A stretch of 64,000 nucleotides of DNA from Streptomyces mangrovi. Lineage in GTDB: Bacteria; Actinomycetota; Actinomycetes; Streptomycetales; Streptomycetaceae. The stretch lies in assembly GCF_900114215.1 (NCBI RefSeq), contig NZ_FOSG01000026.1:1-64000 (forward strand), written 5' to 3'. Position 1 is the first letter of the stretch. The number at the start of each line of letters is the position of its first letter. A program made the translations under genes and the position numbers. The notes beneath the pieces are model-generated. The model was not told the origin of the DNA. It made no database searches and saw nothing but the letters and a program-made list of their open reading frames with translations. This document shows positions 25,808-31,603 of the stretch, in pieces.

Positions 25808-26605
25808 TCAGCCCCGCGCCATGTTCCGCTCGTAGACCAGGCGCAGCCCGATCAGCGTCAGCCACGGCTCGTGCTCGTCGATCCCCGTGGACTCGCCCAG
25901 CACCATCGGGGCCAGGCCGCCGGTGGCGATGACGGTCACGTCCTCCGGGTCGTCGGCCAGTTCGCGGGCCATCCGCTCCACCACACCGTCCACCTGTCCG
26001 GCGAAGCCGTAGAGGATGCCGGACTGCATCGCCTCGACGGTGTTCTTGCCGATGACGCTGCGCGGCCTGGCCAGCTCGATCTTGCGCAGCTGCGCACCGC
26101 GCACGCCGAGTGCCTCGACCGAGATCTCGATGCCCGGCGCGATGGCGCCACCGGTGTACTCGCCCCGGGCGGAGACCGCGTCGAAGGTGGTGGCGGTGCC
26201 GAAGTCCACGACGACGCACGGTCCGCCGTACAGCTCCACCGCGGCCACCGCGTTGATGATCCGGTCCGCGCCGACCTCCTTGGGGTTGTCCGTGACGACC
26301 GGCATACCGGTCTTGACACCCGGCTCGACGAGGACGGAGGGGATGTCGCCGTAGTGGCGGCGCGTCACCTCGCGCAGTTCGTGCAGGACGGAGGGGACGG
26401 TGGAGCAGATGGCGATGCCGTCGATGCCGTCGCCCAGGTCCTCGCCGAGCAGCGGGTGCATGCCCATCAGTCCCTGGAGGAGCACGGCCCACTCGTCGGC
26501 GGTGCGGCGGGCCTCGGTGGAGATCCGCCAGTGCTCGACGATCTCGTCGCCGTCGAACAGGCCGAGGACGGTGTGGGTGTTGCCGACGTCGATCGTGAGC
26601 AGCAT
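25808..26605 (-). CDS. coaX: Type III pantothenate kinase
   Basis: This enzyme phosphorylates pantothenate, the first committed step to coenzyme A, and unlike CoaA is not feedback-inhibited by CoA. The 265 residues show the ASKHA-fold phosphate loop LLTIDVGNTHTVLGLFDG, pantothenate-binding HYGDIPSVLVEPGVKTGMP, and VVDFGTATTFDAVSARGEY. The catalytic Asp is in the first loop. Its ATG shares one base with the nadC stop (TGATG), so the two are coupled. With panC two genes upstream, the operon makes pantothenate and commits it to CoA. Confidence 0.95.
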   Translation of the reverse strand: MLLTIDVGNTHTVLGLFDGDEIVEHWRISTEARRTADEWAVLLQGLMGMHPLLGEDLGDGIDGIAICSTVPSVLHELREVTRRHYGDIPSVLVEPGVKTGMPVVTDNPKEVGADRIINAVAAVELYGGPCVVVDFGTATTFDAVSARGEYTGGAIAPGIEISVEALGVRGAQLRKIELARPRSVIGKNTVEAMQSGILYGFAGQVDGVVERMARELADDPEDVTVIATGGLAPMVLGESTGIDEHEPWLTLIGLRLVYERNMARG

Positions 26606-27669
26606 CAGTCGCTCTCCTGTCCGCCCGCGCCGCCGCGGGCCTCGTCACGCAGGTCAAGGCCGATGTCGAGGATCGGGGAGGAGTGGGTGAGCGCTCCGAC
26701 CGCCAGGTAGTCCACACCGGTGTCCGCGTACGCGCGGGCGTTCGCCAGGGTGAGGCGGCCGGAGGACTCCAGCTTCGCCCGGCCGGCGACCAGCGCGACC
26801 GCCTCGGCCGTCTGCCCCGGGGTGAAGTTGTCCAGCAGGATCAGATCGGCGCCCTCGGCGAGGACGGGCTCGATCTGGTCCAGCCGGTCCACCTCCACCT
26901 CGATCGGCACACCGGGGAACTCCTCGCGCACCCGCTTGAACGCCTCGGCCACCCCGCCCGCGGCGATCACGTGGTTGTCCTTGATCAGCGCGGCGTCCGA
27001 CAGCGACATCCGGTGGTTGACCCCGCCGCCGCAGCGCACCGCGTACTTCTCCAGGGCGCGCAGCCCGGGAGTGGTCTTGCGGGTGTCGCGGACCGCCGCG
27101 CCGGTGCCCCGGAGCACGTCGGCCCAGGCGCGGGTGGCGGTGGCGACACCGGACAGCCGGCACAGGATGTTGAGCGCGCTGCGCTCACCGGTGAGCAGAT
27201 CGCGGGTGCGGGCGCGCACCGACAGCAGCCGCTGTCCCGCCTCGACGCGGTCACCGTCCTCGACGTGCCGCTCGACCTCGAACTCCTCGGTGCAGACCAC
27301 CGACAGCACCGCCTCGGCGATCCGCAGACCGGCGACGGTGCCCGCCTCCCGGGCGGTGAAGTCGGCGGTGGCGACGGCGTCCTCGGGGATGGTCGCGACG
27401 GTGGTGACGTCCACACCCTGGTCGAGGTCCTCCTCGATCGCCATGTGCGCGATGTCCTCGACCTGCACCGGGTCCAGGCCGGCGTCCACGAGCAGCGCGG
27501 CCAGGTCCGGGTCCAGACCGCACTCCAGCGGGTCCAGGTCGAGTCCGTCGTCCGCACCGCCGCAGCCGCAGGCGTCGCCGCAGCCCCCGCCGGTGCCGTT
27601 CACCGCCTCGCCGGGGCGGCCGAAACCGATCTGGAGCAGCGGAAGTTCGTCGGGCGTGGGGCTGGTCAC
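26605..27669 (-). CDS. nadC: Nicotinate-nucleotide pyrophosphorylase (quinolinate PRTase)
   Basis: This 354-residue enzyme converts quinolinate and PRPP to nicotinate mononucleotide. It is longer than usual (about 285). The catalytic body begins near residue 55 (LDPDLAALLVDAGLDPVQVE) and includes DTRKTTPGLRALEKYAVRCG, NHRMSLSDAALIKDNH and EVEVDRLDQIEPVLAEGADL. The extra N-terminus has a Cys/Gly motif, GGGCGDACGCGG, of unknown role. GTG 27669 follows GAGGAGA. It lies downstream of nadB across a repeated spacer. No nadA is in the window. Confidence 0.93.
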   Translation of the reverse strand: MTSPTPDELPLLQIGFGRPGEAVNGTGGGCGDACGCGGADDGLDLDPLECGLDPDLAALLVDAGLDPVQVEDIAHMAIEEDLDQGVDVTTVATIPEDAVATADFTAREAGTVAGLRIAEAVLSVVCTEEFEVERHVEDGDRVEAGQRLLSVRARTRDLLTGERSALNILCRLSGVATATRAWADVLRGTGAAVRDTRKTTPGLRALEKYAVRCGGGVNHRMSLSDAALIKDNHVIAAGGVAEAFKRVREEFPGVPIEVEVDRLDQIEPVLAEGADLILLDNFTPGQTAEAVALVAGRAKLESSGRLTLANARAYADTGVDYLAVGALTHSSPILDIGLDLRDEARGGAGGQESD

Positions 27670-27670
27670 T

Positions 27671-27845
27671 GCATCTCCTCGTGAGCTTCTCCACCCACGC
27701 GGCACAGCGGCGCGGGCATCTTCCTCAACCGCGGCCCGGCGGCCGCGCGTGCGACACCCGGCATCCCCGCGTGAGCTTCTCCGCCCACGCGGCACAGCGG
27801 CGCGGGCATCTTCCTCAACCGCGGCCCGGCGGCCGCGCGTGCGAC
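27671..27845. repeat. Two copies of an 85-bp direct repeat, period 90 bp, in the nadB-nadC gap
   Basis: Copies lie at 27671-27755 and 27761-27845. The last 75 bases of each (27681-27755, 27771-27845) differ at one position, and the first ten at two. Each contains a GC hairpin (stem 27730-27736/27741-27747) and, on the leftward strand, the open peptide segment PRLRKMPAPLCRVGGEAH. The unit starts GTGAGCTTCTCC. It fills the whole intergenic region, including close to the nadC ribosome site. It looks like a small mobile or REP-like element duplicated in place. Confidence 0.85.
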
Positions 27846-27847
27846 GC

Positions 27848-29572
27848 TCACTGTGCCCCCCTGCCCATGACCGGGGGAAACGCCGTCGAGTCGGTCGTGC
27901 GGACGATGAGCTCGGAGCCCTCCGCCGTGGGACGCAGGGCGACGACCAGGTGCCGGCGCCAGGTCGCGTCGTCCCGTCCGGGATGGTCCTCGCGCCAGTG
28001 GCAACCGCGGGTCTCGGTACGGCGCAGGGCGGCGGCGACCAGGACGCCGGCGACGAGGTGGAGGTTGGCCGCCTCCCAGGTCTCGACTCCGGGCTCGGCC
28101 GGTTTGCCGTCCCTGCCGCCGGCGCTGCCCCCGGCCTCGTCCGGGGCCAGGGCCGCCAGTTCCCGCGCGGCCCGCGCCAGGCTCTCCGCGGAGCGCAGCA
28201 CCCCGGCCCCGGCGGTCATGGTGCGCTGGATCGCGTACCGCGCCTCGGCCGGCGGCAGCGAAACGGTCCGCGTGCCCGCCGGATCGCCGGGTTCGGCGGG
28301 CACCGGGACGCGAGCGGGGGTGCGGGCGATGTCGGCGGCGATCCGCTCGGCGAAGACCAGGCCCTCCAGCAGAGAGTTGGAGGCCAGCCGGTTGGCGCCG
28401 TGCACGCCCGTGCAGGCGACCTCGCCGCAGGCGTACAGACCGGGCACGGTGGTACGGCCCGCCAGGTCGGTGCGCACCCCGCCGGAGGCGTAGTGCGCGG
28501 CGGGCGCGACCGGGACCGGCTCGGTGACCGGGTCGATGCCGTGGGCGCGGCAGGCGGCGAGGATGGTGGGGAACCGCTCGCTCCACATCCGTGCGCCGAA
28601 GTGCCGGGCGTCCAGGTACATGCGGTCGGCACCCTGCTCGCGCATCCGCCGCATGATGCCCTTGGCGACGATGTCGCGCGGGGCCAGCTCGGCCAGTTCG
28701 TGCTGCCCGGCCATGAAGCGCTCGCCGCCGGCGTCGACGAGGTGCGCGCCCTCGCCGCGCACGGCCTCCGACACCAGCGGCTGCTGACCCTCGCTGCCCG
28801 GGCCCAGGTAGAGCACGGTCGGGTGGAACTGGACGAACTCCAGGTCGGAGACCTCCGCGCCGGCCCGCAGCGCCAGCGCGACACCGTCACCGGTGGAGAC
28901 CGGCGGATTGGTGGTCGCGGAGAACACCTGGCCCATTCCGCCGGTGGCCAGCACCACCACCGGGGCGTGGACGGCGCCCACCCCGTCGTGCCGCCCCTCG
29001 CCCATCACGTGCAGGGAGACGCCCGCGGCGTGCCCGCCGGCGTCCTTGAGCAGGTCCAGGACGAGGGCGTTCTCCACCGTCTCTATCCCGGCGTCGCGTA
29101 CGGCCGCCACCAGGGCGCGGGATATCTCCGCGCCGGTCGCGTCGCCGCCCGCGTGGGCGATGCGGCGGCGGTGGTGGCCGCCCTCGCGGGTCAGGGCGAT
29201 CTCGCCGGTCTCGGCGGAGGTGTCGAACCGCGCCCCGGCGCCGATCAGCCGCCGTACCGCGTCCGGTCCCTCGGTGACCAGGGCGCGCACCGCCTCCTCG
29301 TCGCACAGGCCCGCGCCGGCGACCAGGGTGTCGTCCAGGTGCTGGCCGGGGGTGTCGCCCTTGCCGAGCGCGGCGGCGATCCCGCCCTGCGCCCAGCGTG
29401 TGGAGCCGGCGTCCAGCCGGGCCTTGGTGACGATCACCGTCTTCCGGCCGGAGGCCGCGCAGCGCAGTGCGGCGGTCAGGCCGGCCACTCCGGAGCCGAC
29501 CACCACCACGTCCGCCGCGATGGCCCAGCCGGAGCGCGGCGCGTCGAGCCGCAGGCCTGTCATCCCGTTCAC
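27848..29572 (-). CDS. nadB: L-aspartate oxidase
   Basis: This FAD enzyme oxidises aspartate to iminoaspartate, the first step of de novo NAD synthesis. Its 574 residues show FAD dinucleotide motif [54 protein letters not shown], and the FAD C-terminal site [19 protein letters not shown]. The C-terminal capping helices are complete. GTG 29572 overlaps the panC stop by four bases; ATG 29563 is an alternative. Iminoaspartate would go to NadA, which must be encoded elsewhere. Confidence 0.96.
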
Positions 29573-31430: not shown

Positions 31431-31540
31431 GTGGTTTCGGCCTTCCGTTCCAGTCCGCAGGACCCGGTACCGGACGATTACCGCCATGCTACGCGGACTC
31501 TCCGGCTCCCCGTTCCGCCCGCCCGCAGGGCGGGACGGGC

Positions 31541-31603
31541 GGCACGCGGAACCCGGTTCGGAATCCGGCACGCGGAACCCGGTTCGGAATCCGGTGCGCG
31601 GAA
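31541..31603. repeat. 26-bp tandem repeat, about 2.4 copies, in a divergent promoter region
   Basis: Units start at 31541, 31567 and (partial) 31593. Each begins GGCACGCGGAACC and includes the 11-bp dyad GAACCCGGTTC. The first two are identical over 26 bases; the third starts GGTGCGCGGAA. The array lies between the leftward operon (31430) and the rightward PLP-enzyme gene (31646), at a spacing of about 2.5 helical turns. A cooperative operator is a reasonable guess. Confidence 0.7.

Follow-up and report, generated by a model that had tools for sequence, protein, structure and literature searches.

A tandem of two units between nadB and nadC of Streptomyces mangrovi probably belongs to a dispersed, MIRU-like insertion element of Streptomycetaceae

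Introduction

The DNA analysed here, a stretch of 64,000 nucleotides of Streptomyces mangrovi referred to below as the window, carries the genes nadB and nadC, and the gap between them is filled by two near-identical copies of a short sequence. What is such a repeat, and how can two genes of an operon be separated by it? An initial annotation, made from the letters alone, had proposed either mobile DNA, of a REP-like or miniature kind, or post-transcriptional control of the NAD operon.

Several classes of short bacterial repeats are relevant to this question. MITEs are short, have no transposase inside, and have inverted arms and the same few letters at their ends. REPs are dispersed, short, structured repeats that are extragenic and untranslated, and the Rickettsia palindromic elements are dispersed, short, structured repeats located inside genes, where they keep the reading frames. 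The mycobacterial interspersed repetitive units (MIRUs) were reportedly described by Supply et al. in 1997 and are not known to contain obvious palindromes. A 2025 review (PMC12548453) presents MIRUs as short, apparently mobile repeats of mycobacteria whose insertion targets start codons; the ORF inside the repeat is thereby coupled at −4 nt to the gene, with probably little effect on expression. According to another article (PMC2734929), MIRUs measure 40–100 bp and occur at 41 places in H37Rv, with a polymorphic copy number at 12. Among the papers listed in searches of the open-access literature, we found no report of a Streptomycetaceae counterpart of the unit described here.

Results

Two fused units make up the nadB-nadC gap

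A repeat search of the window found two direct 85-nt copies, at 27671-27755 and 27761-27845, which match at 82 of 85 bases (96%) with a spacing of 90. Of the 44 rows that Tandem Repeats Finder gave for the 64-kb window, this array scored highest, with 329 against 121 for the runner-up. Both results confirmed the two near-identical 85-bp elements with a period of 90 and three mismatches that had been described initially. An identical leftward peptide frame had also been claimed for each copy. The frame is real, and in the operon direction the whole gap is a single open frame of 61 codons running through both copies, which are nearly, rather than fully, identical (Table 1). We also observed a separate 26-bp tandem, CGGCACGCGGAACCCGGTTCGGAATC, in 2.5 copies at window positions 31540-31603.

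Table 1. Positions of the features of the nadB-nadC array in the window
Feature	Position	Strand	Basis
nadB, L-aspartate oxidase, upstream gene	27848..29572	-	NCBIfam TIGR00551
GTGA overlap: nadB stop TGA / mini-ORF start GTG (27851-27849)	27848..27851	-	sequence
Mini-ORF, 61 codons + stop, two fused units	27666..27851	-	sequence, translation, overlap analysis
Unit 1 (upstream) core, 74 nt, R2 86.7 bits	27770..27843	-	covariance model
Unit 1 closing stem, 5' arm, model columns 1-12	27832..27843	-	covariation
Unit 1 closing stem, 3' arm, model columns 51-62	27782..27793	-	covariation
Unit 2 (downstream) core, 74 nt, R2 84.3 bits	27680..27753	-	covariance model
Unit 2 closing stem, 5' arm	27742..27753	-	covariation
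Unit 2 closing stem, 3' arm	27692..27703	-	covariation
GAGGAG, Shine-Dalgarno-like, unit 2 end, 5 nt before nadC GTG	27675..27680	-	sequence
GTGA overlap: mini-ORF stop TGA (27668-27666) / nadC start GTG (27669-27667)	27666..27669	-	sequence
nadC, nicotinate-nucleotide diphosphorylase, downstream gene	26605..27669	-	NCBIfam TIGR00078

The unit is dispersed in Streptomyces and related genera

Searched at the DNA level, the genome from which the window comes contains 10 matches to the repeat. The covariance model R1, built from 8 cores with a two-hairpin fold, gave 11 strong rows in this genome with E up to 1.9e-4; R1 rows near E 1e-3 were taken as chance. The model R2 was built from 27 copies and spans 74 nt, leaving the unit ends outside; the E-values of both models are rough. 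At E 1e-5 and with 12 candidates scored per genome, R2 matched in 135 of 392 genomes of the genus, many of which had one match each, and with 150 candidates scored it found 11 to 20 copies in each of nine rich genomes. At the family level, matches came from 42 of 200 genomes and covered 8 of 17 genera. A class-level search (E 1e-4) was positive in 11 of 296 genomes, all from the window's genus, that is, 1 of 114 genera.

An exact-pattern scan of the core middle in named genomes yielded 74 matches in 71 stretches, some of them copies already present in the R1 and R2 searches. All came from Streptomyces except one from Streptantibioticus ferralitis and one from Actinacidiphila oryziradicis, both genera being Streptomycetaceae. 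Paired matches to the 5' end, GAGCGACGCACGCGAGGCCG, with a 90-base spacing were seen at G181:C1:2838992, G166:C804:1013, G071:C3:3311020 and G400:C1:2158603. These are absent from the R2 list at E 1e-5 and are possibly a diverged subfamily; since R2 missed them, the element family may exceed the present count.

The unit had no Rfam match at the gathering score (two sub-threshold rows, E 1.6 and 3.9), and its peptide had no Pfam or NCBIfam match above the cut-off. The sub-threshold rows for BmKX (Pfam, E 0.027), zf-nanos (Pfam, E 0.14) and one NCBIfam model (0.21) do not assign it to a known protein family.

Each unit overlaps its neighbours at start and stop codons

The anatomy of the units was analysed in 177 copies from 121 arrays, after removal of duplicates (L124, L129 and L130, which are the same places as L162, L126 and L127) and of the chance row L078:1068. 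The unit is ~92 bp long and is located exactly at a DTGA start codon, with GTGA (or ATGA) at both ends; 47 of 74 single-copy arrays measure 92 or 95 bp from start to start, some others being longer with nested blocks. The mini-ORF typically has ~31 codons, compared with the 61 of the window.

At the upstream end, 109 of the 121 arrays have a mini-ORF whose initial DTGA doubles as the stop of an upstream frame of >60 codons. At the downstream end, its stop overlaps a start codon in 114 arrays, 112 times at −4 and twice as TGATG. Overlaps at both ends were found in 106 of 121 arrays, and as this sample is biased to high-scoring matches and tandems, none of these fractions is a population estimate. 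Among the 112 arrays with the −4 overlap, the downstream frame has at least 60 codons in 97 and at least 40 codons in 111, and GGAG, GAGG or AGGA occupies a Shine-Dalgarno-like position in 72. In the pattern-found set, for which no minimum upstream length was set and which includes a few upstream frames of less than gene size, 72 of 74 cases have the upstream overlap and 72 of 74 the downstream overlap.

Seven of the 121 arrays are without the downstream overlap; among them, L188, L194 and L202 end a few bases inside a gene, L008 stops at a contig edge and L191 continues into the downstream gene. In L183, which is counted within the 112, the mini-ORF also extends far into the following gene. 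As the mini-ORFs of L183 and L191 do not stop at the junction, these inserts may supply a new N-terminus for the downstream protein.

A 27-nt palindromic block (like GGGGGCACCTCCC..GGGGG) lies in frame between GTGAGC and the core in L003, L070, L072, L175, L178, L201 and L208, and additional in-frame blocks are located close to the 3' end in L074, L076, L080 and L083. These blocks look like nested insertions that respect the frame; the count of nested palindromes is little above control.

A hand-over through TGA/DTG requires a length of 2 mod 3, so the unit lengths bear on the maintenance of the frame. When the flanking starts were chosen without reading the mini-ORF, the start-to-start length was 2 mod 3 in 62 of 74 single-copy arrays; for some of the other 12 a wrong start was picked. 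In the tandems, we obtained 56 spacings from 29 arrays, those within one array not being independent: 87 (3), 89 (11), 90 (9), 91 (1), 92 (21), 93 (5), 95 (3), and 116, 119 and 122 (one each). All but one are either 0 mod 3, as in the fused units of the window, or 2 mod 3, as for a unit-to-unit hand-over, the sole exception being the 91 in L202.

The same junctions can be empty or hold different numbers of units

The flanking proteins of the 121 arrays form 35 clusters if either flank may match and 42 if both are required. L115, L188, L194 and L202 lie at a gene start, no coupled upstream gene being seen there, and look like one site; when they are merged, at least 32 distinct sites remain, many of which occur once in the sample. 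NCBIfam named argC, nuoC, cysD, gatA, hisB and purL among the flanks. Judging by their sequences, other flanks are probably argJ, purQ and nuoB, and further junctions probably pgk-tpiA, pnuC-rib and mrdA-rodA.

In 30 argJ loci of relatives, the argC-argJ junction is a bare GTGAG overlap in 9, filled in 7 and occupied by a shortened in-frame remnant in 1; the other 13 loci were unparsed or were without argC directly before argJ. R2 found the unit in exactly the 7 filled loci. The remnant (L237, genome G002) is ~77 nt long and runs from overlap to overlap, its core being no longer detected by R2.

Copy number differs even between the window's genome (G000) and a genome labelled as the same species (G407), whose flanks are 95-98% identical. 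At nadB-nadC, G000 has two units and G407 three. The corresponding numbers are 1 and 2 at both gatA and hisB and 2 and 1 at a fourth junction, while argC-argJ and one other junction have one unit in both genomes. Four units were found at nadB-nadC of genome G661. The G000 copies C53:338874 and C20:134797 have no counterpart among the G407 matches. At purQ-purL, the G000 assembly breaks within units, at the end of C42 and the start of C31 (L007 and L008), with one unit on each, and a G407 stretch (L362) spans both of these contigs with one unit.

The suggestion of a miniature mobile element thus holds as far as dispersal goes: the genome has 11 strong copies, and junctions of relatives can be cleanly empty, although no copy was observed to move. 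The nadB-nadC feature is very probably a tandem of two units of an insertion element that is MIRU-like and dispersed in Streptomycetaceae; this element would pass ribosomes from gene to gene and be near-neutral for its operon.

Many insertions look old

We compared copies of exactly 74 nt, which are 141 of the 177 and to which all statistics on cores (similarity, stops and pN/pS) are limited. Mean similarity was 0.787 for different sites within one genome (82 pairs), 0.794 for different sites in different genomes and 0.834 for the same site. The nearest neighbour, determined for 108 arrays, was at the same site for 39, tied for 14 and elsewhere for 55. As copies at different sites of one genome are no more alike than others, no recent burst is visible, and neither a recent burst nor within-genome gene conversion is supported. 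Many insertions look old. Among the places listed for the 5'-end pattern in 10 genomes, which were compared by eye with known copies, there was no obvious autonomous partner.

A tree of 32 argC-argJ pairs was made by a quick method; 19 of the 51 loci sought were unparsed, and the 23 rows labelled as filled include the remnant L237. On this tree the filled/empty label needs 8 changes, and starred branches force at least 4 of these. The label shows no clustering, 313 of 500 shuffles being as low, and the tree thus does not separate gain from loss. Presence and absence at this junction are compatible with one old gain followed by several clean losses.

These observations bear on the possibility that the unit is an ancient operon linker, now immobile, that originally spread by duplication or gene conversion and has since been inherited vertically with frequent loss. 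It would agree with copies that are not homogenised within genomes, with empty sites mixed among the filled rows of the tree, and with features that many argC-argJ copies have in common across species, such as A-T pairing of columns 10-53 and the end GGAGATGCA. However, many sites were seen once in the sample, the clean empty junctions retain the exact GTGA, and units may still be moving. We regard the ancient linker as a rather unlikely account of the units, though one to be kept in mind.

A covarying stem closes each unit

RNAalifold predicted a long-range helix that pairs core columns 1-12 with 51-62. In the 27 copies, 94.9% of the cells of this helix pair and 6 pairs change on both sides; of 500 shuffles, none was as good on four of the five measures, and 13 were on the remaining one. 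As R2 itself contains the helix, a fairer test of covariation was provided by the 70 distinct pattern-found cores, in which the nine stem pairs tested lay outside the search pattern. In these, 93.8% of cells were paired and 35 cells were compensated (sequences counted, not events), against 89.2% and 7.7 in shuffles, with 0 of 1000 shuffles as high on both; 6 pairs had compensated changes, a number reached by 1 of 1000 shuffles. Thinned to 90% identity (33 cores, without shuffle control), the set gave 88.6% paired and 15 compensated cells. That a covarying stem closes each unit is thus well supported by these alignments.

The initial annotation had instead assigned a GC hairpin to each copy. 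For these local hairpins, 80.3% of cells were paired and the five measures were reached by 39, 57, 6, 371 and 13 of 500 shuffles, which is weak comparative support; the two-hairpin fold of R1 was accordingly replaced by the closing stem.

A structured RNA located just before nadC could be a cis-acting control element of the NAD genes (an attenuator, a riboswitch-like element or an RNase processing site) that was duplicated locally, and the covarying stem and the stable predicted folds, calculated without a shuffled control, would fit it. The distribution of the unit does not. It occurs at argC, hisB, gatA, nuoC, cysD and purL and in all in at least 32 junctions, its copy number varies within one species, and it stays below every Rfam gathering score. 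R2 had no strong match in the nadC loci of 17 relatives, where three rows at 23-25 bits (L252, L244 and L257) were taken as chance. The nadC junction was readable in 13 of these relatives and is short, that of G015 being the bare overlap CAGTGACC. With the unit at non-NAD junctions and no strong match in the relatives' nadC loci, control of the NAD operon, as proposed initially, is not supported, and NAD-specific RNA control is strongly disfavoured; we consider a control element of this kind very improbable. The repeat neither occurs once in the genome nor is present in all relatives, the two findings that would have argued for a local regulatory duplication. A unit of the dispersed insertion element may have a mild effect on the downstream gene.

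The frame seems to be kept open, and the peptide appears unconstrained

No in-frame stop was present in 124 distinct 74-nt cores, where column shuffling gave a mean of 2.5 and zero in 20 of 1000 shuffles. The other two frames are also stop-poor (5 against 12 and 43 against 53 in shuffles), which makes the lack of stops no more than moderate evidence. A stop does interrupt the mini-ORF frame in L140 and in L149, the latter being shorter. The pN/pS was 0.95 in the mini-ORF frame and 1.17 and 0.89 in the others; with a value near 1, the evidence for coding lies in the frame and the ends. Selection seems to keep an open, length-compatible frame and to leave the peptide sequence unconstrained. The units might instead encode, between operon genes, a family of conserved small proteins or peptides that are themselves functional. 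This would agree with a frame open in all 124 cores and reaching from overlap to overlap in most arrays, but it is highly improbable given a pN/pS close to that of the other frames, units that fuse and multiply freely, orthologous sites that can be empty and the lack of protein-family matches above the cut-off.

Discussion

Our reading of the nadB-nadC array as two tandem units of a dispersed insertion element suggests the following course of events. Units would arrive by insertion at a start codon of the form DTGA, which in most cases shares bases with the stop codon of the preceding gene. Each supplies a mini-ORF that lies between two stop/start overlaps, usually with a Shine-Dalgarno-like sequence near its 3' end. 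Ribosomes finishing nadB would then re-initiate on the mini-ORF, traverse both units and re-initiate on nadC, so that the insert would be nearly neutral for the operon and for that reason persist. Selection would keep the frame and a compatible length while the peptide sequence is free, and the units could afterwards expand and contract in tandem. The closing stem may serve mobility, as DNA ends or as RNA, or the structure of the mRNA.

The closest known system is that of the MIRUs. Like these, the Streptomyces unit is short (up to ~100 bp) and dispersed, and it lies at start codons, with the bare GTGAG at 9 of 30 argC-argJ loci; its internal ORF has the anatomy of coupling at −4 nt, the coupling being predicted. 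Tandem copy number, which in MIRUs differs between isolates, differs between G000 and G407 at four assembled loci and is equal at two. Unlike MIRUs, the Streptomyces unit has a covarying closing stem, and it is found in Streptomycetaceae. R2 had no match in the 17 PE-bearing genomes of genus g8 in the class draw, a comparison of the core model with genomes rather than an alignment to MIRU letters; g8 is most likely Mycobacterium, as inferred from PE, which also matched other genera and an E. coli control. As the form is that of a MIRU and the sequence test, at its present sensitivity, was negative, we describe the unit as working in the manner of a MIRU but leave it outside that class: it is a MIRU-like, apparently translated, stem-closed unit of Streptomycetaceae.

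Similarities to other classes are partial. Like MITEs, the unit is short, has no transposase inside, and has inverted arms and the same few letters at both ends. However, its 11-bp covarying arms are internal and not at the insertion boundaries: in the usual form they start 8 nt after the mini-ORF start and end >12 nt before the other end. Coupling, too, needs the GTGA(G) that stands at each end, which is thus not clean evidence of target duplication. The unit shares with REP/RAYT repeats and the Rickettsia elements its dispersal, short length and secondary structure. REPs are extragenic and untranslated, whereas the unit sits in coupled junctions with a frame whose translation is predicted; this location, at start codons inside operons and with a maintained frame, argues against the REP-like nature that had been considered at first. 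The Rickettsia elements also keep frames, but inside genes, whereas the Streptomyces unit makes a separate, coupled ORF between genes.

It is conceivable, and we put it forward tentatively as somewhat short of an even chance, that the unit represents a second lineage of mobile DNA targeting start codons, which arose in Streptomycetaceae, unrelated in sequence to the MIRUs and convergent with them. Its only cargo would be a linker that ribosomes can pass, and the stem would be recognised for movement or precise loss. If this is true, inserting at DTGA would generally allow mobile DNA to reside in operons and leave them intact.

If the reading as a dispersed insertion element is right, MIRU-type behaviour is not peculiar to mycobacteria, and hidden, translated linkers of variable number lie in core operons (arg, his, pur, nuo, nad and cys) of bacteria that make antibiotics, where they affect how gene starts are annotated and can interrupt assemblies. 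The loci could possibly serve as markers for strain typing. The natural series of junctions that are empty or hold one, two or three units would, in ordinary laboratory Streptomyces, make the effect of the unit on operon expression directly testable.
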